A stretch of DNA of 64,000 bases, from the NCBI RefSeq assembly GCF_021295335.1, contig NZ_JAIWOT010000001.1:1367001-1431000 (forward strand), given 5' to 3'. A model generated the notes under the pieces. That model did no database searches and was not told the origin of the DNA. It saw nothing but the letters and a program-made list of their open reading frames with translations. Shown piece after piece: positions 4,068-11,943 of the stretch. Source of the stretch: Komagataeibacter sp. FNDCF1 (GTDB lineage: Bacteria; Pseudomonadota; Alphaproteobacteria; Acetobacterales; Acetobacteraceae). Positions within the stretch are counted from its first letter, which is position 1. Each line of letters begins with the position of its first letter. A program made the position numbers and the translations under genes.

Positions 4068-4745
4068 ATGTCACTGATTCAATCCCTCAGGCTCGTCATC
4101 GCGCCGCCACACCCGGCCGCGCGTCCCTTCCTTCTCGGTTCGGGCGCCGTGGCCGTTATCGGTCGCCTGCTGCCCTTCAGGGCGACAAGGCTGCTGGGTA
4201 CCGCCAGCGGGCTGTTCTTCGGTTTCTGCCTGTACTTCTTCCGTGACCCCGAACGCGTCACGCCGGCGGAACCGAACCTGGCCGTGGCACCGGCCGACGG
4301 GCATGTCGTCTCGATCGAGAAGGTCGCTCCCCCTCCGGAACTGGATATGGGGGATGCACCGGTATGGCGCGTCGCCACCTTCCTGTCCGTACTGGACGTG
4401 CATGTGAACCGCATGCCGGTGGCCGGCACGGTCACGCGCATTGCCTACCATGCGGGCCAGTTCCTCAATGCCAGCCTGGACAAGGCATCGGAACTGAACG
4501 AGCGCAACGCGCTGCGCGTGACCCTGCGTGACGGGCGTCAGGTCGCGGTGGTGCAAATCGCGGGCCTGATCGCGCGCCGCATCCTGTGCGATGCGGAAGA
4601 AGGCATGCAGTATGAAACGGGCGAACGCTTCGGCCTGATCCGCTTTGGCTCCCGCACCGACCTGTACCTGCCCGCCGATGTCACCCCGCTGGTTGAAGTT
4701 GGCCAGACCATGATCGGCGGCGAAACCGTGATGGCGCGGCTCTAG
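4068..4745 (+). CDS. psd: phosphatidylserine decarboxylase proenzyme
   Basis: Decarboxylates phosphatidylserine to phosphatidylethanolamine using a pyruvoyl group made by self-cleavage. At 225 aa it is the short bacterial form. It has a hydrophobic N-terminal region (about 20-60), the FFRDPER motif, [13 protein letters not shown], the histidine-containing [13 protein letters not shown], and the cleavage site G194-S195 in [11 protein letters not shown] near the C-terminus. It lies 6 bp upstream of pssA, which makes its substrate; the pair forms a two-gene operon. Confidence 0.93.
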
Positions 4746-4751
4746 ACCTCC

Positions 4752-5615
4752 ATGGCGCTTCCCCCCCCTGACCGACCGGCACGCCGGATCCGGCGGCTGA
4801 AAAAACGCCAGCGCCCCCGCGTGCGCGGCCTGTCCTTCAACCGCATGGTCCCCAATCTCATGACCATGCTTGGCCTGTGCGCGGGGCTGACCGGCATGCG
4901 CTTCGGGCTGGAAGGGCGTTTTGGCAGCGCGGCCACGGCGCTGCTCATCGCTGCGTGCATTGACGGGCTGGACGGGCGCATTGCCCGCCTGCTGCGCGGC
5001 ACCAGCCGCTTCGGGGCGGAGTTCGACAGCCTGTCGGACTTCCTGTGCTTTGGCGTGGCACCCGCCTTTGTCCTGTACCTGTGGGCCCTGCATGAAGGCG
5101 GGCGGTTCGGCTACATTCCCTGCATCATGTTCACGGTGTGCATGGCGCTGCGGCTGGCGCGCTTCAACGCCAGCCTGGATGATGATGCCGACAAGCCGAA
5201 GTACGCCAGCAACTTCTTTACCGGCGTGCCCGCCCCCGCCGGTGCGGGGCTGGCGCTGTTCCCGCTGTTCCTGGGACTGGAAGCACAGCGGCTGCATCTG
5301 GACTGGCTGTACGAACTGACGCGGGACCCGCTCCTGCCTGCCCTGACACTCAGCGGTACGGCATTCCTTCTGGTCTCCACGCTACCGGTCTGGTCATTCA
5401 AGAATTTCAAGGTACCGTCTCCCCTTATCCTGCCCACCATGCTGGGCACCGGGGCCTGTGCCGCGGTACTGGTGGCCGAGCCATGGGGCGCGCTGGCGGC
5501 GGCAGGCGTGCTGTATATCCTGCTGCTGCCCATGAGCCGCCGCAGCTTTCACCGCCTGCGCCGCGAAGCCGACGCGCTGCAGGAAAGTGACGATACGCCC
5601 GCCCACCCGTCCTGA
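4752..5615 (+). CDS. pssA: CDP-diacylglycerol--serine O-phosphatidyltransferase
   Basis: Makes phosphatidylserine from CDP-diacylglycerol and serine at the inner membrane. The CDP-alcohol phosphatidyltransferase motif DGX2ARX8GX3DX3D starts at D71 (DGLDGRIARLLRG then FGAEFDSLSD). About eight hydrophobic segments follow, and the first 27 residues are rich in Arg/Lys. Length is 287 aa, normal for the family. It is translationally close to psd (6-bp gap), so substrate and product enzymes are made together. The downstream gene is convergent. Confidence 0.93.
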   Translation: MALPPPDRPARRIRRLKKRQRPRVRGLSFNRMVPNLMTMLGLCAGLTGMRFGLEGRFGSAATALLIAACIDGLDGRIARLLRGTSRFGAEFDSLSDFLCFGVAPAFVLYLWALHEGGRFGYIPCIMFTVCMALRLARFNASLDDDADKPKYASNFFTGVPAPAGAGLALFPLFLGLEAQRLHLDWLYELTRDPLLPALTLSGTAFLLVSTLPVWSFKNFKVPSPLILPTMLGTGACAAVLVAEPWGALAAAGVLYILLLPMSRRSFHRLRREADALQESDDTPAHPS

Positions 5616-5642: not shown

Positions 5643-6098
5643 TTATTCCGGGGGCGCGGGCCTGTCTTCCCCCATGCGCCAGCGCACGAGGGCGTCCAGT
5701 ATCGTGGCGGGCGCGGGTGGACAGCCCGGCAGCGACAGACTGGCACGCGCCCGCTCGCCTACCCCCCCCAGCACGGCGTAACCGGGCACGAACAGGCCGC
5801 CATCCACCGCGCAGTCCCCCAGTGCGCCAAGAAGCCGGGGGCCGGGCATGGCCTGCCAGGCCAGTTCCACCACAGGGGCCATCGCCATGGTCAGGCTGCC
5901 GGTCAGGAGCAGCATGCCAGCCTGACGTGGCGTGGTGACGAAACGGATATCGATGCTGGCCGCCACCAGTGCCCGCGACACGGCGCGCAGTTCCAGTGCG
6001 CAGCCGGTGCAGCCACCGGTTTCGATATGAAAGATATCCAGCGCCCGCGGGCGCGGCAGCACCGTCCCCTCGGGCCAGAACAGGTGCAGATACGCCAT
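5643..6098 (-). CDS. NuoB/HyfI-like iron-sulfur small subunit of Ehr-type complex
   Basis: This is a homologue of the electron-transfer small subunit of hydrogenase-4/formate hydrogenlyase (HyfI, HycG) and of NuoB. All four ligands for a proximal [4Fe-4S] cluster are present: C30 and C33 in GGCTGC, C96 in LGDCAVDGG, and C126 in LPGCPPAP. The protein is 151 aa, a little short. AAGGAGG, overlapping the stop of the preceding large-subunit gene, provides its ribosome binding site (10-bp gap). It is the last gene of the six-gene operon that starts at about 11.95 kb. The cluster ligands are kept although the large subunit lost its metal ligands, so the protein can plausibly still carry electrons. 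Partner and acceptor are unknown. Confidence 0.85.
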   Translation of the reverse strand: MAYLHLFWPEGTVLPRPRALDIFHIETGGCTGCALELRAVSRALVAASIDIRFVTTPRQAGMLLLTGSLTMAMAPVVELAWQAMPGPRLLGALGDCAVDGGLFVPGYAVLGGVGERARASLSLPGCPPAPATILDALVRWRMGEDRPAPPE

Positions 6099-6108
6099 CG
6101 CCGCCTCC

Positions 6109-7578
6109 TTACAGATCAGCCCCCGCAGCCGACAGGCCCAGCGATATCAGCACGGGATCAACATCTTCGTACATCGCGCCGGACAGGATGGCGGGCAATG
6201 CCTGTATATGCGCAAGCGACGGATCACCGCACCACCATGCGGCAATCCGGCCGTTTTTCACCCGCACCCAGTGCCATACGGGGCCTGCCGGACCTTCGGC
6301 AAGGCCAAGACCCTCGCCGGTCATATCGTCCGGGCCGGGATGCGGCGGCAATTCCGGCAGCGTATCCGCCGTGGACAGGATCGCCACGCTTTCCCCCATT
6401 TCATGCAGGCGGGTGGCAAGGCGGGCGGTCATGTCGCCCCCGCCACGCGGCGGGGGTGTCAGCCATCCCGGCGCGTAGCCGGGCCCGTCGCGCCGCAGGT
6501 CGGCCTCGATGCCCGAAGCCCGCCCCGCGCAACCCGCAATTCCCCAATGCCGGGCGACGTCAGTGGTCAGGACGCCCCGGCCCAGCAACTGCGTGGCCAG
6601 CCCGCGCGGCCGCCAGAACAGGCGTTTCAAGGCCAGACAGCCGGCATGCAGATCGTCCATCATCCCTGCCGCGGGTACGCGGGCCGCATGCGCATCGGGG
6701 GGGGAGAACACATCAAACAGCAGCCGGTGGCCATACAGTGCGTGACAGGCCTGCCTTACGCGTTCAAGCAGGGTTGCGGCCAGGGTGGCGAAGCGTCCAT
6801 CCGCCAGCAGGTCCGCCATCTGCCCCAGCATGTCCAGATGGGTCGCCACCCGTTCAAGTTCAGCGGGGAAAATGGCCGACCGGGCCAGCCAGTCCGCTGC
6901 CCCCCCGGCGGCAGCCACGGCACGCGCAAGGGCCAGCTGGTGTGCAACCGTTGCCGTCGCGTCAATCCGGGCGACCAGCCCCGCCGCCCCGGCCAGCGTA
7001 TTGCCCCGCATGCGCGCGCACAGTCCACGATGGGCATAGCCCATGCGGGTATGGACCTGCATGATCCGCTCCCCCGGCACACCCAGGCGCAGATGCAGGG
7101 GGGCATGAAAACCGCCCTCCGCCGGGCCGTAACCCAGCATGATGCCCCCTGCCCGTTCCATGGCGCTGCCATCATCGAATTCCACCCCTTCGGGTGGCGG
7201 CGGGGCGGGTGGCGGGCGTTCCCGCAGGGGCCATGTCACCCCCCACTGTCCCTGATCAAGCCAGGGCGCCGTACCGGTTGCCCCCATGGCCTCGACCCCC
7301 CACAGATCATGGATCATGCGCTCATGGGCCTGCGCCCCGGCGCGCGCGGGGGAAAGGGCATGATAACGCCCCCCGTCCACCTCCACACTGGCAATCAGCG
7401 GCCCCGTGCCATCCAGGAACAGGGCATGCACCTGCGCGCCATCCGACCACAGCCCGCATAGCCGTGCGCGGCAATGGGGCAGTTCCTCCACCATCCCACG
7501 CCATGCATCGGGGGTCAGGACAAAGCGCCCGTCACAGGACGTGGGCTGACCGGCGCGGACAAGGGCGCGCAGCTTCAT
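6109..7578 (-). CDS. NuoCD/HyfG-like large subunit lacking [NiFe] cysteines
   Basis: This is a fused NuoC-NuoD/HycE-like subunit of 489 aa. The NuoC-like domain is about residues 1-120 and ends with the family's W..PLR. A proline-rich linker follows (about 121-130), then the NuoD/large-subunit domain (about 145-489) with LGYGPAEGGFHAP and RMGYAHRGL. Group 4 [NiFe] hydrogenases carry RxCGxC here and DPCxxC at the C-terminus. In this protein the first is RIDATA (residues 204-209) and the second DPVLIS (474-479), so none of the four cysteines remains. It cannot bind the canonical Ni-Fe site and is not a hydrogenase. The family level fits the energy-converting hydrogenase-related (Ehr) group. It overlaps the hyfF-like stop by ATGA. 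Confidence 0.85.
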   Translation of the reverse strand: MKLRALVRAGQPTSCDGRFVLTPDAWRGMVEELPHCRARLCGLWSDGAQVHALFLDGTGPLIASVEVDGGRYHALSPARAGAQAHERMIHDLWGVEAMGATGTAPWLDQGQWGVTWPLRERPPPAPPPPEGVEFDDGSAMERAGGIMLGYGPAEGGFHAPLHLRLGVPGERIMQVHTRMGYAHRGLCARMRGNTLAGAAGLVARIDATATVAHQLALARAVAAAGGAADWLARSAIFPAELERVATHLDMLGQMADLLADGRFATLAATLLERVRQACHALYGHRLLFDVFSPPDAHAARVPAAGMMDDLHAGCLALKRLFWRPRGLATQLLGRGVLTTDVARHWGIAGCAGRASGIEADLRRDGPGYAPGWLTPPPRGGGDMTARLATRLHEMGESVAILSTADTLPELPPHPGPDDMTGEGLGLAEGPAGPVWHWVRVKNGRIAAWWCGDPSLAHIQALPAILSGAMYEDVDPVLISLGLSAAGADL

Positions 7579-8663
7579 GGCCCGATCCCCCCATGATGGA
7601 TGACAGCGGCAAGCACCACGCAGCCCAGCACCAGCAGCAGGCCGCCCCTTGATCCCATGGCATGCACGCCATCATGCCACGCCATGCCCGGTTCACACCG
7701 GGCCATGACCGGCCACAGGCTCATGCCCGCCAGCAGGGCCACCACAGGCGCATGCGCCATCTGTGCCATCAGCACAAGAACCAGCGCCATGCCCGGCAGG
7801 AACGGTGGCCATGACAGGTACCCCTCATCCACCACGTCATGCGCGGTGGGCCGCATGCAGGCAAGCACCAGCAGACAGGCCGCAAGCGGCAGCCCCGTGG
7901 CCGCCCCCGGCAGACCCGTCGCCAGCACCGCCCATGCCCCCCACGCCATGGCAGGTGTGCCCTGCCGCCCGGTGCGCGGCAGGGCAGCCCATGCCAGACA
8001 GGCCAGCCCCATGAAGGTCAGGACCGGCTGCACGACCGGCCACATATCCGCTGCCCGTGCCACGACCGGCAGGGCGGCCAGCGTATCCATCCCCCGTCCC
8101 GGCAGGCCCGGCGGCGCGGCATCCGCCAGCAGCCCGCAGGCCAGAAGCACACCGCATACCAGCAGCACAGCCCCCGCCTGATCGGCCATGCCGCCCCATT
8201 GCGCCTGCAGCACGGACAGGCCGCCCTGCGCCATGACAAGCCCGCCCAGCCCGCTGCGCAATGCTTCCCACCCGATGCGGTCGAGCCCCCGGGGGCCGTG
8301 CGCCAGTACCAGCCGCACCCCCAGTCCCACGCCCATGATCGCGAAAAGCAGGTCACACCGCCCGAACGCCACCGCAAGCGCTGCATTGCCCGACAGGATG
8401 AACGCGGCAGCGACCGCTCCGGAACCATTCTTCCCGCCGTCATGGACAAACGAGACACGCACGCACAGCGCCAGTGCCGGGGCAAGCCCCATAAGCGCCT
8501 GCGCGGCGGTCGGGGCGACCCATCCGGCCACACCGCATAACGCGACAAGCAGCCCGGCCAGCAGCACGCGCAGGGCCTGTGGCGCTCCCGTGGCCAGCAG
8601 CGCCATGACGGACACGGCCATCCACCCCGCCAGCAGGCTGCCGTAAAGCGGGAGTGACATCAT
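7575..8663 (-). CDS. HyfF-like membrane subunit, short and divergent
   Basis: This is a polytopic membrane protein in the position of hyfF in hydrogenase-4 operons (E. coli order B-C-E-F-G-I). It has about ten to twelve hydrophobic segments and 362 aa, against roughly 520 for E. coli HyfF. Antiporter-like complex I subunits use a buried glutamate and lysines for proton movement. I cannot find these; the only lysine is in a polar loop (HDGGKNG). The start overlaps the hyfE-like stop (TCATGATG); a second ATG follows directly at 8660. Assignment rests mainly on operon position and hydrophobicity and less on sequence, so confidence is moderate. Confidence 0.65.
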   Translation of the reverse strand: MMSLPLYGSLLAGWMAVSVMALLATGAPQALRVLLAGLLVALCGVAGWVAPTAAQALMGLAPALALCVRVSFVHDGGKNGSGAVAAAFILSGNAALAVAFGRCDLLFAIMGVGLGVRLVLAHGPRGLDRIGWEALRSGLGGLVMAQGGLSVLQAQWGGMADQAGAVLLVCGVLLACGLLADAAPPGLPGRGMDTLAALPVVARAADMWPVVQPVLTFMGLACLAWAALPRTGRQGTPAMAWGAWAVLATGLPGAATGLPLAACLLVLACMRPTAHDVVDEGYLSWPPFLPGMALVLVLMAQMAHAPVVALLAGMSLWPVMARCEPGMAWHDGVHAMGSRGGLLLVLGCVVLAAVIHHGGIGP

Positions 8664-9208
8664 GATGAATCCCCACCCGCGCGCGGAATGCTGGCCATGA
8701 CGGCATTCAGCCCGGCGGCAGCCACGATCACCACCAGCATGACCGGCGTGCTGCCCGCGCGCGCGCCCAGCAGCATGACGCCATCCAGCCCGCATGCCAG
8801 TCCCGCGCACAGCGCCGCCGGCCCGCGCGCGATACAGGCACCCCACGCACCGCACAGGATGGCGCACAGGGCCGCCATGACCATGAAGCGCTGCGCCATG
8901 TCCCCCACGGCCCCCTGCACGATGACCTGCGCCAGCACCGTCACGCAGACCAGTCCGCCAGCAAGGCGGATGACGCTGCGCTCACGCCCGCTGGCTGGCA
9001 CATGCAGCATCTGTACTCCCAGCAGGCCCACGCATCCCGCCAGCACCACGGCCAGCAGGCACGCAACACCGACCTGCTGCCCCCCGTTCCAGCCGGACAG
9101 GCACACGCAGCCCGCCGTCAGCCCCCCATGCCATACAAGCCCGCCCCCGCGCCCCCCCGAACAGGACAGCGAACAGATGACAAGCATGCCAAGCAGAAGC
9201 ACCAGCAT
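8660..9208 (-). CDS. HyfE-like membrane subunit, cysteine-rich
   Basis: This small polytopic membrane protein (182 aa, about six hydrophobic segments) lies in the hyfE position of the operon. Hydrogenase-4 HyfE has a NuoK-like C-terminal half. Here the segment around AQRFMVMAALCAILCGAWG and the following helices would match, though without obvious conserved glutamates. It has about twelve cysteines and no lysine. The start at 9208 is 2 bp after the hyfC-like stop. A longer frame exists upstream but would overlap hyfC with unrelated sequence. Its identity is inferred from position, size and topology. Confidence 0.6.
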   Translation of the reverse strand: MLVLLLGMLVICSLSCSGGRGGGLVWHGGLTAGCVCLSGWNGGQQVGVACLLAVVLAGCVGLLGVQMLHVPASGRERSVIRLAGGLVCVTVLAQVIVQGAVGDMAQRFMVMAALCAILCGAWGACIARGPAALCAGLACGLDGVMLLGARAGSTPVMLVVIVAAAGLNAVMASIPRAGGDSS

Positions 9209-9210
9209 GG

Positions 9211-10179
9211 TCAGCCCGCCCCCCGCCCGGCAAAAAGCAGGACCCCGGCCATGATCGTGCAGAGCAGGCCAAGCCCGGCGCGCCAGCCCGCATGCCGCTG
9301 CCCCGACAGAACGAAAACCCGCATGCCCGCCACGCACCCGCACGCCAGCAGCATGTGTATGCCCCATAACAGCATGGCCACGCCCATCGGCCCCGGCCCC
9401 CATGAACGGGCCAGCAGATCAGGCTCCACGATGCTTTCGGGCCAGACCAGATCACGCGCCAGCATCATCCATACCACCGCCAGCAGGTCACGCGCATACT
9501 GGGCCACGGCACGGTCGGGGCCAGCCAGGTCTTCCAGCATGACGGAAAACAGCCTTGCACCGGCTTCGTGACCTTCTTCCACCCCCGTCAGCACCAGCGC
9601 GCCCGCCACCAGCGCCAGCGGCACACGGACCAGATTCATGTCCGCCACATGCGCCTGCCGCACCAGTCCCGCCAGCGTGCCATCGGGCAGGCACGTGCCC
9701 AGTATCGCGCAGGACAGCAGCAGCACCGGCTGGAGCATCAGCCCCCCGGCAACCACCCGCAGCCCGGCATGTCCCGGCCGGGCCAGCCCCGCGGCAAAGG
9801 CCACGGTCACAAGCGCGACAAAAGCCGCTTCCAGCAGCCCTCCCACCACGAGCAGGTCTGACAGATCGCCACAAGGCAGACCGATGGAAAAGGACGGCAC
9901 GAGCATGGCCGCCCCCATGGCCGCCGCCAGCGCAAGCCAGGGGGCAAGGGCGGTAACATGCGCACCCGCGGCCGAGCGCACGCCCGGCTGGCGCCAGGCA
10001 TGCCGCAGCGCGCGCCAGTGCGCGACAGGATCGGGGGGGCGGCGCTCGCCCTCCATCATGGTGGCCATCCAGCGCAGAAGGCCGATCCACAACGGGGTTG
10101 TCAGCATGACCAGCGCCATATGGCAGCCAGCCAGCAGCGTGGCCTGCATCCGCGCGGCCAGCAGGGTTGGCACCGTCAT
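9211..10179 (-). CDS. HyfC/NuoH-like membrane subunit
   Basis: This 322-aa polytopic membrane protein is related to HyfC/HycD/NuoH, the subunit that links the hydrophilic and membrane arms. Family features can be traced though diverged. ERRPPDPVAHWRALRHAWRQ stands where relatives have RRGPPLLQPYxDLLKLxRKE. QYARDLLAVVWM stands where relatives have EYSGRDLALLEW. The lysines and one glutamate of these motifs are replaced, and the protein has no lysine at all. It starts 3 bp after the hyfB-like stop. It was aligned by eye, so residue correspondence is approximate. Confidence 0.7.
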   Translation of the reverse strand: MTVPTLLAARMQATLLAGCHMALVMLTTPLWIGLLRWMATMMEGERRPPDPVAHWRALRHAWRQPGVRSAAGAHVTALAPWLALAAAMGAAMLVPSFSIGLPCGDLSDLLVVGGLLEAAFVALVTVAFAAGLARPGHAGLRVVAGGLMLQPVLLLSCAILGTCLPDGTLAGLVRQAHVADMNLVRVPLALVAGALVLTGVEEGHEAGARLFSVMLEDLAGPDRAVAQYARDLLAVVWMMLARDLVWPESIVEPDLLARSWGPGPMGVAMLLWGIHMLLACGCVAGMRVFVLSGQRHAGWRAGLGLLCTIMAGVLLFAGRGAG

Positions 10180-10182
10180 CGT

Positions 10183-11943
10183 CTATCCATGCCACGCAAT
10201 GAACACGAGCGCCCCCAAGCAGGCCAGCAGCATGACAGCCGGTACGGCAATGACACGCCCCTGCCACAGCCAGTCCATACGATGCAGCAGGACCCTGCCC
10301 CCGCGCCCGGCCCATGCGCGCCACCTTACATATGCCCGCACCCAGCGCAGCCGGGTCGGGGCGGGCACCAGCATGTCCAGCACCATGCGCGCCGGGCTGG
10401 CGGGGCCAGGCTGTGTCAGCGGGTCGCCAAAGACCATCCAGGGCGGAACGGCGGGCGCGCCCTGCTGCCAGCCCGCCACCTGCCGCGCGGGAGTGGGGCA
10501 GGCAAGTCTGCGCAGCAGCAGCGCCACGCCCCCCATTACCGCCACCAGCAGGCACAGCCGCCCGGGGTGAAGAATGGCCGTGCCATCGGGAGAGGCAAGA
10601 ACGATGTCATTGACGGCGGGATGAAGCAGGGAACCGGACAGGCCATGGTCCGCTCCCTCCATCAGTCCCATCCACAGGCCCGGCCAGATGGAGGAAAGAA
10701 GCACCGGCACACCGGCAGCTAGCACGGGTATCATGGCGCGGCCATCCGGGTCGGCCGCCCCCGCGCCACGCGGGGTCCGGGGCCGGCCGCACAGCATGAC
10801 CGCCACCACACGCACCAGCGCCAGCATCCGCACGGCCCAGCCCACACCAAGGGCGACAAGTGCGGCCAGCAGGGGCATGTCCCCCGCCAGTCCACCACCA
10901 TGCGACATGTCGGCAAGCAGGTGCAGCAGCATCCAGATGACGGAAAAACCCAGCAGGGGCGGCAGCCCGCTTTCCGCCAGCAGGCCAAAAGCGAACAGGG
11001 CGGACAGCCAGGGCATGAGCATGCCCAGCCCCCCCAGCCGCAGCAGGATCAGCGCCCCGGTCTCCCGCTCCATCACATCAAGCGCGCGCGCCATGAACAC
11101 CCATGTCAGCAGCGTTGCCACCACCAGCATGGACGTGCGGCTGGCGGATACCGCCATGGCGGGCAGGTCATCGGCACGCGCCAGCAACCCCAGCCCCGCC
11201 AGCACGATCACCAGCGCGCCGGAACCACCCAGAAGCCCGGCCATGACCCCACGCCCCTCACCCGCACGCAGCGCGCGCCACGACGCGGTCATGTAGAACA
11301 GGCATCCCGCCACGACCAGCAGCCAGCCCCAGCGCATGTCCGCCACCATGCCCGCCCGGGGCAGCCGCCCCCACAGGCCCATGGCGGCGATCATGCCCGC
11401 GATATCCGCCAGATGGAACGGCCTGCCCGCACGCGGAGCGATACGGGGGGAAAAGGACAGGCCCAGAAGCCCGCGCGTGGCACACCAGCACAATCCGGGC
11501 AGAAGCCAGCCGGCCCGCTCCGGGCAGGTCAGCCCGGCCGCCAGCAGCAGCAGGGCAATCATGTCGGGTGCATGGCGCGCACCGGCCCGCCGGGTCGTGC
11601 CTGTCACCAGCAGTATCCACCCCGCTCCCGCGCAGGACAGGACATCGTTGCCCATCACCGCAAGGCCCGCCGCGGCACAGGCCGCAAGGTCACGCCAGGC
11701 AGAAGCGGCCCCGCCCGCAAGCCCAAGGGGTACAAGCAGGGCAATGACGCGTGGGGATGCAGACAGGCCATTCCACGCTACCGGCCCGCCCGGCAGCCTG
11801 ATGCCAAGACAGGCCAGAACCGCCATGGCGGCCACAGCCAGCCATCCCCCCCGCAGGCAAGCCAGCGCCAGGCCACCGGATGGGTGGCCACCGCCCCGTG
11901 GCCAGCAGGCCAGCAGGACCGTCGCCCCACCCAGCAGCAGCAT
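10183..11943 (-). CDS. HyfB/NuoL-like membrane subunit without lysine
   Basis: This is the first gene of the Ehr-type operon, a large polytopic membrane protein of at least 586 aa in the position of hyfB (E. coli about 670 aa). It has around fourteen hydrophobic segments and a C-terminal amphipathic region ending in a final helix. Antiporter-like subunits normally carry a WExM glutamate in TM5 and a K-x-PLHxWLP motif. Here the comparable stretch reads AGAGWILLVTG, and there is no lysine anywhere in the protein. The ATG at 11943 has no ribosome binding site, and its frame is open and hydrophobic upstream (AVIIPVIPVIL). The real start may be a non-ATG codon near 11967-11973 just after GGGAGGG. 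Confidence 0.65.
   Translation of the reverse strand: MLLLGGATVLLACWPRGGGHPSGGLALACLRGGWLAVAAMAVLACLGIRLPGGPVAWNGLSASPRVIALLVPLGLAGGAASAWRDLAACAAAGLAVMGNDVLSCAGAGWILLVTGTTRRAGARHAPDMIALLLLAAGLTCPERAGWLLPGLCWCATRGLLGLSFSPRIAPRAGRPFHLADIAGMIAAMGLWGRLPRAGMVADMRWGWLLVVAGCLFYMTASWRALRAGEGRGVMAGLLGGSGALVIVLAGLGLLARADDLPAMAVSASRTSMLVVATLLTWVFMARALDVMERETGALILLRLGGLGMLMPWLSALFAFGLLAESGLPPLLGFSVIWMLLHLLADMSHGGGLAGDMPLLAALVALGVGWAVRMLALVRVVAVMLCGRPRTPRGAGAADPDGRAMIPVLAAGVPVLLSSIWPGLWMGLMEGADHGLSGSLLHPAVNDIVLASPDGTAILHPGRLCLLVAVMGGVALLLRRLACPTPARQVAGWQQGAPAVPPWMVFGDPLTQPGPASPARMVLDMLVPAPTRLRWVRAYVRWRAWAGRGGRVLLHRMDWLWQGRVIAVPAVMLLACLGALVFIAWHG

Follow-up and report, generated by a model that had tools for sequence, protein, structure and literature searches.

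What role could be left for a relative of respiratory complex I that is unable to pump ions? The question is raised by a six-gene operon of Komagataeibacter sp. FNDCF1, which lies on the minus strand within positions 5643–11943 of the stretch of contig NZ_JAIWOT010000001.1 analyzed here (64,000 nucleotides, hereafter the window). An earlier note on this DNA described a hydrogenase 4-like operon whose large subunit has lost its nickel-iron ligands, and suggested that the complex may couple a quinone or other redox reaction to ion movement. The loss of the nickel-iron cysteines proved to be a property of a whole class, the energy-converting or Ech hydrogenase-related (Ehr) complexes. The unusual part is a second, much deeper round of loss, which took place in one branch of the window's family.

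Composition of the operon

The genes follow the order B, C, E, F, G, I, and neighboring genes overlap or are separated by short gaps:

10183–11943, minus strand: B-type (HyfB/EhrA-like) antiporter subunit, 586 amino acids (aa); matches PF00361 (E 1e-5) and NF005086, hydrogenase 4 subunit B (E 1.4e-15, a score below the curated cut-off of that model)
9211–10179, minus strand: C-type (HyfC/NuoH-like) membrane anchor, 322 aa; alignment and a profile of the family loci (E 4e-103, the profile including the window's own sequence)
8660–9208, minus strand: E-type (HyfE/EhrC-like) membrane subunit, 182 aa, about six transmembrane helices (TM); TM count and a profile of HyfE-like loci (E 6.6e-6)
7575–8663, minus strand: membrane subunit in the F slot, 362 aa, about ten TM; position in the operon and TM count
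6109–7578, minus strand: G-type (EhrL) large subunit, 489 aa; matches PF00346, the complex I 49-kDa subunit family (E 1.9e-13)
5643–6098, minus strand: I-type (EhrS) small subunit, 151 aa; alignment and a match to PF01058 (E 5e-20)

The coordinates, strand and gene set given in the earlier note were correct, the letter F being assigned by position alone. The A and H genes are absent, as had been reported, and so is D. Among solved structures, the best relatives of the G protein were Nqo4 of Thermus and HycE of Escherichia coli. Four TM-rich open reading frames (ORFs) preceded G in all ten loci checked, even where B, C and E were hardly matched by profile.

For the position counts given below, 18 ordinary alphaproteobacterial loci (L086–L103) were compared with the window, five copies from its genus and 21 loci of its family (L064–L084), the latter three being referred to as degenerate. 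Together these three make up 27 large-subunit rows; the 27 degenerate rows for B consist of the window, 11 genus copies and 15 loci. An intermediate locus, L085, stands outside both groups in the position counts and belongs to the “ordinary” 19 in the tree and neighbor counts. L072 had no small-subunit match in its locus, the ordinary locus L092 had no B or C match, and the ordinary B rows of L088 and L103 were partial. Another 20 loci were scored apart from the counts: seven had C or B subunits of the ordinary kind in appearance (L175, L176, L180–L184), two were intermediate (L172, L173), one was NuoD-like, and ten were degenerate or partly scorable. The NuoD-like L174 (genome G086) is in no count.

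Nickel-iron site of the large subunit

All four nickel-iron cysteines are gone from the large subunit, as the earlier note had claimed. The first motif reads RIDATATVAH opposite RVCGICGFAH of HycE, with D206 and A209 at the positions of C241 and C244. In the second motif, the loss of both cysteines was confirmed and its location was not: DPVLIS (474–479), which had been taken for the counterpart of the hydrogenase motif, aligns with PLIIGS of HycE, and the true counterpart of DPCYSC is GLSAAG (481–486), seven residues further on, where S483 and G486 replace C531 and C534. No canonical CxxC pair was found elsewhere among the eight cysteines of the protein (15, 36, 41, 187, 278, 314, 350, and 450). 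The nickel-iron cysteines were absent from all 26 rows first aligned, the window included, one of which (L029) ends before the second motif. At the four positions in turn, the 18 ordinary rows had Ser (18), Ser (16, with one Ala and one Thr), Ser (16, with two Thr), and Gly (18). The signature of the ordinary large subunit comprises GPVHAGIIEPGHFRF, RxSGDSTVA, and DFPLCNKSFNCSYSGxDL.

Second round of loss

Residues around the former active site separated the two groups further. The proton-donor glutamate (E193 of HycE) was found in 18/18 ordinary rows and in 2/27 degenerate ones, and the loop histidine (H188) in 18/18 and 1/27, respectively. At the position of the canopy residue D529, all 18 ordinary rows have Asn, whereas degenerate rows have mostly Gly (23/27, including G481 in the window) and Asp in a single row. 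The canopy arginine R478, present in every ordinary row, is replaced by A431 in the window. The roles of E193, R478, and D529 as proton-donor or canopy residues are those given for HycE in PMC9474812.

Changes of the same kind affected the membrane subunits. The E-channel glutamates corresponding to E130 and E138 of HycD are both present in 17/17 ordinary C rows; E130 was found in none of the 22 degenerate rows and E138 in two, the window having V142 and Q150 instead. The ND1-type loop of C has 20 residues in 17/17 ordinary rows and 4–16 in the 22 degenerate ones; it is 10 residues long in the window and 17 in NuoH. In E. coli, mutation of HycD E138 or of E199/E201/E203 lowered H2 output by 98–99%, according to the mutant data quoted in PMC9474812. 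Five key ionizable positions of HyfB were compared in the B subunit. Ordinary rows (n = 17) had Glu in TM5 (16), Lys in TM7 (16), Lys in TM8 (15), Lys in TM10 (17), and Glu in TM12 (17), whereas none of the 27 degenerate rows retained any of them. In the window, the TM5 position is missing in the alignment, and the others are A144, A187, W281, and I336. The F protein is 362 aa long in the window, compared with 474–486 aa matched in 17/18 ordinary loci, and was not recognized as HyfF (hmmsearch E 0.078; hhalign probability 0.7%). When L075, L076, and L083 were combined, however, their F-slot proteins were HyfF-like (hhalign probability 94.5%). Thus, of the Ehr membrane set, B, C, and E of the window were matched by profile and F was placed by position. 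Since the antiporter residues, the E-channel glutamates and the greater part of the ND1-type loop have been lost, ion pumping by this complex is unlikely, and the coupling to ion movement supposed earlier is not supported by the sequences of the window's clade.

Retained iron-sulfur ligands and inner network

The four cysteines reported for the small subunit (C30, C33, C96, and C126) are present, are its only cysteines, and align with the four cysteines of HycG. The pattern is the hydrogenase-type CxxC...C...C, predicted to be the ligand set for one [4Fe-4S] cluster. The set was intact in 25/26 degenerate and 17/18 ordinary small subunits, L097 being the ordinary one without one of the cysteines. 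Five further genomes in which the small-subunit gene has been relocated, degenerate by their residues and outside the tree, also had all four cysteines when read by eye.

In the large subunit, R204 (R239 of HycE), which we take from complex I to adjoin the iron-sulfur cluster, was retained in 27/27 degenerate rows. The window also retains H247, R353, and E393 (H284, R395, and E437 of HycE), found in 23, 25, and 24 of the 27 rows, respectively. In HycE, these three residues form a putative proton path from the canopy, as described in the part of PMC9474812 that deals with it.

Phylogenetic position and distribution

In the tree of 47 large-subunit rows, the 24 degenerate rows formed one clade (support 100/99, present in 100% of 200 bootstrap trees), which was nested within the ordinary loci of the window's family. 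Four outgroup rows fell on one side of a branch with support 100/100, and the operon grouped with the other loci lacking the cysteines, separate from HyfG/HycE and NuoD. The tree includes long branches of unsure placement and 13 rows flagged for unlike letter composition, and was built from rows other than published Ehr sequences. Together with the absence of a NiFe large subunit and of HypD from the genome, it bears out the earlier assignment of the operon to a non-hydrogenase, six-gene relative of complex I of the Ehr lineage. The nearest ordinary relative in the tree, L085, was half-way: the Glu of TM5, E193, and E138 are still present, and E130, H188, and the remaining four antiporter residues are gone. 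The degenerate clade probably corresponds to acetic acid bacteria, judging from two named Komagataeibacter loci. In a single-protein scan of named genomes, the loci of K. rhaeticus and K. diospyri showed 75% and 62% identity over the best segment.

A large-subunit match at E <= 1e-20 was obtained in 166 of 200 genomes of the window's family. Nine of the 166 matches were weaker than 1e-30, and all nine genomes matched the clade alignment at 3e-65 or better. Twenty listed genomes among the 34 unmatched were searched again: G046 had a full-length large subunit and G050 an N-terminal piece, nothing was found in G012 and G066, and the other 16 matched mainly in the NuoD-like stretch. In the class-wide search, 35 of 385 genomes matched at E < 1e-80, 31 of them outside the window's family, in 22 families; the weaker matches, among those listed, mostly cover only the NuoD-like stretch.

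Two side observations concern the wider set of loci. In the intermediates L172 and L173 (genomes G058 and G134), the antiporter positions read E-K-N-K-E, and H188 and part of the E-channel were lost; a second strong large-subunit match was found elsewhere in each of the two genomes. L103, from a 0.9 Mb genome of another family (G367), is an ordinary Ehr locus with an intact large-subunit signature. The class-wide search gave a single match in that genome; thus, NuoD may be absent there.

Selection on the operon

The large-subunit frame is open in 19/19 genomes of the genus, the window's included, so the observation is not a chance one. Within the genus, the median ratios of nonsynonymous to synonymous substitution rates (dN/dS; Nei–Gojobori method, NG86) were 0.36 for B, 0.27 for C, 0.34 for E, 0.46 for F, 0.32 for G, and 0.26 for I. 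In two ordinary genera, the large-subunit values were 0.29 and 0.14, a comparison that calls for caution in that third-position G+C is 88–90% in these genera and 74% in the window's. According to these values, constraint on the operon genes is similar to that in the first ordinary genus and weaker than that in the second. The genes are thus under purifying selection.

Some length variation was seen within the genus. The large-subunit matches of L007, L119, and L120 (G135, G585, and G594) skip window residues 355–376, and 7 of the 19 genus copies are 463–465 aa long, which makes a shared deletion of about 20 residues likely in part of the copies.

Proposed function and alternatives

The reading we favor, to which we give nearly an even chance, is a degenerate Ehr complex, non-pumping and without H2 production, which would act as a membrane-anchored [4Fe-4S] one-electron relay or redox-responsive element. 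The sequences show a descent from the Ehr class, in which the nickel-iron site was already missing. One branch of the window's family then lost the proton-donor glutamate of the large subunit, and the same branch lost E-channel glutamates of C, the greater part of its ND1-type loop, and the Glu/Lys relay of B. The six-gene architecture, the four iron-sulfur cysteines, and the inner network of R204, H247, R353, and E393 have been kept, under purifying selection. From this we infer that the complex still assembles in the membrane and neither makes hydrogen nor pumps ions. Less certainly, its single [4Fe-4S] cluster might serve as a one-electron relay or a redox-responsive switch toward a partner in the cytosol or the membrane, with anchor and scaffold perhaps provided by the former antiporter subunits.

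Several observations weigh against this reading, and those that also favor an alternative are given with it below. Arg occupies the TM7 position in 4/27 degenerate B rows, and the canopy R478 was retained in 12/27 degenerate large subunits, the window not being among these. Ion paths through other residues or through ordered water may exist. In the five small genomes (L077–L081), B and C have diverged too far for alignment, so the B and C counts do not include them. In addition, the predicted structures were poor, with a mean predicted local distance difference test score (pLDDT) of 41 for F and 38 for G from three input sequences. Finally, genus g100 lacks three of the four small-subunit cysteines, the gene still being present in both genomes (G157 and G100; loci L082, L165, L210, and L211). 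The cluster is thus not required in every lineage, which counts against a universal redox role.

It is unlikely, in our estimate, that the complex is still an oxidoreductase of the Ehr or complex I type, perhaps acting on quinone, that moves ions through residues other than the conserved ones. Such an activity would account for the retained six-subunit architecture. Moreover, H158 of the window lies in the column of the quinone-site histidine of E. coli NuoCD (that of D192 in HycE), which we take to be the counterpart of H95 of Yarrowia. The window and six other degenerate rows (7/27) have His in this column, whereas all 18 ordinary rows have Ile. The Yarrowia histidine is thought to be a quinone proton donor, as noted in a passage of PMC9474812. 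In the formate hydrogenlyase of E. coli, HycC likewise deviates from the standard relay, with L208 instead of Lys and another N-side path (PMC9474812). However, HycC differs at some of the positions, whereas here all five are lost in 27/27 rows, and E130 and most of the ND1-type loop are lost as well. The F subunit is shorter and unrecognizable. The tyrosine that contributes to the quinone site of NuoCD is absent, A207 standing in its place. Because of H158, some quinone chemistry could remain in the window's genus, in a pocket that would be at least much altered and from which most of the closing loop has disappeared.

We likewise consider it unlikely that the operon is a relic in slow decay that is no longer useful. 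All six operon genes have higher dN/dS than all six flanking genes (0.06–0.21), which also fits slow decay. The stepwise character of the loss, with the L085, G058, and G134 loci as intermediates, and the loss of the iron-sulfur ligands in g100 point in the same direction. On the other hand, dN/dS is well under 1 in all six genes, and its large-subunit value is near that of one ordinary Ehr genus (0.32 against 0.29, the other having 0.14). The frames are open throughout the genus, and the iron-sulfur ligands stay while much else drifts. In addition, the gene has been kept in five of the 22 clade genomes, these five being 1.9–2.3 Mb in size and rated 100% complete, where the NuoD family search returned this large-subunit gene and no other. 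A pseudogene is disfavored by the same open frames and dN/dS values.

Quite unlikely is a redox-inactive membrane scaffold with a structural or lipid-related role, which is suggested by the psd and pssA genes adjoining the operon (window positions 4068–5615, convergent). Both genes occurred in the same 20-kb stretch in 20/22 degenerate loci and in 0/19 others, and the g100 small subunits without iron-sulfur ligands would suit such a role. However, pepA and holC are also found in that stretch in 18/22 degenerate loci, so inherited gene order suffices, and we rejected psd and pssA as a functional link on this ground. The window's pssA is convergent and outside the operon, and the iron-sulfur ligands are intact in 25/26 small subunits.

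A working [NiFe] hydrogenase, as in the annotation “hydrogenase 4,” was rejected as having virtually no chance, since only homology to HyfB and HycE speaks for it, the nickel-iron cysteines are gone, and neither the NiFe large-subunit family (NiFeSe_Hases) nor HypD was matched in the window's genome, the latter being found in 5/41 genomes overall and 1/22 degenerate ones.

Genomic context

Two other genes of the window's genome match the full NuoD-family model (G000:C1:1271045 and 1645564; ORFs of 425 and 615 aa), a hint that it carries two operons for complex I. In the ordinary loci, no neighbor cluster was common to most beyond the operon itself and antisense frames, among the 40 largest clusters with at least four loci.

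In genomes G022, G149, G085, G008, and G046, the small-subunit gene has been relocated and lies apart from that for the large subunit. The gene that follows it, abutting or overlapping by 4 bases, encodes an NrtR-like protein; NrtR is a regulator of nicotinamide adenine dinucleotide (NAD) biosynthesis. Both NrtR-like proteins tested matched PF21906. Genes of the nadA, nadB, and nadC types then follow in the five stretches read, and nadA, nadB, and nadC were identified in the one locus tested. The same junction was present in G025, G079, and G192, i.e., in all eight genomes looked at (L215–L219, L169, L171, and L223); these genomes are related, so the junction possibly arose in one event. No NrtR-like protein was matched in the window's genome at 1e-8, whereas 31 of the 45 genomes searched have one; the NrtR link therefore does not suffice as an explanation for the window. 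We regard this adjacency as a lead only. It is rather unlikely, though conceivable, that in one lineage a whole machine of the complex I type has become a [4Fe-4S] redox element that does not pump and is linked to NAD status, which might take electrons from NAD synthesis or report on it.

Comparison with known systems

Ehr complexes are known from ehrABCDLS of Methylacidiphilum, from Geobacter, and from the hyc-type genes of the Rv0081–Rv0087 region of Mycobacterium tuberculosis (PMC6349859, PMC6728331, PMC6688271, PMC10284858, PMC7894505). In the relevant sections of these papers their function is not established, and ion movement is suspected (PMC6349859). They share with the window operon the homology to group 4 hydrogenases and complex I, the lack of nickel-iron ligands, the iron-sulfur small subunit, and the HyfE-like and antiporter-like subunits. 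The ordinary loci, all alphaproteobacterial and equated with published Ehr on the basis of gene set and motif loss, keep the H188/E193 loop and, where C and B were scorable, the antiporter Glu/Lys residues, the ND1-type loop, and the R-E-E set, nearly all of which are gone from the window's clade.

Hydrogenases 4 and 3 of E. coli (Hyf and Hyc) have genes of the B, C, E, F, G, and I types, arranged as in the window operon, and the hydrogenase-type CxxC of the small subunit. Unlike them, the window operon has no A, D, or H genes and no nickel-iron site, its E-channel residues are changed, and A431 and G481 replace the canopy Arg and Asp. With complex I it shares the homologous core, with RID corresponding to RMD of Thermus and RIE of E. 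coli, and H158 lies in the column of the NuoCD histidine. It differs in the missing quinone-site tyrosine and in the short ND1-type loop, and its operon lacks genes of the NuoE, F, G, or I types.

Neither such a complex in acetic acid bacteria nor the second round of loss was described in the titles and abstracts of the literature matches listed, which came mostly from open-access sources. Ehr complexes themselves are already known; within this scope of literature, we rate the second round of loss as a new variant.

Members of the complex I superfamily are generally viewed as a single coupling machine with changing chemistry. The window's lineage has shed most of both the known chemistry and the known ion path and has kept the complex, and its intermediates can be placed on the tree. 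It offers a natural experiment that separates the parts needed for assembly and iron-sulfur binding from those needed for pumping. The name “hydrogenase 4” would mislead for these genes, and the lineage raises the question of what role a complex I relative may have when it is unable to pump.

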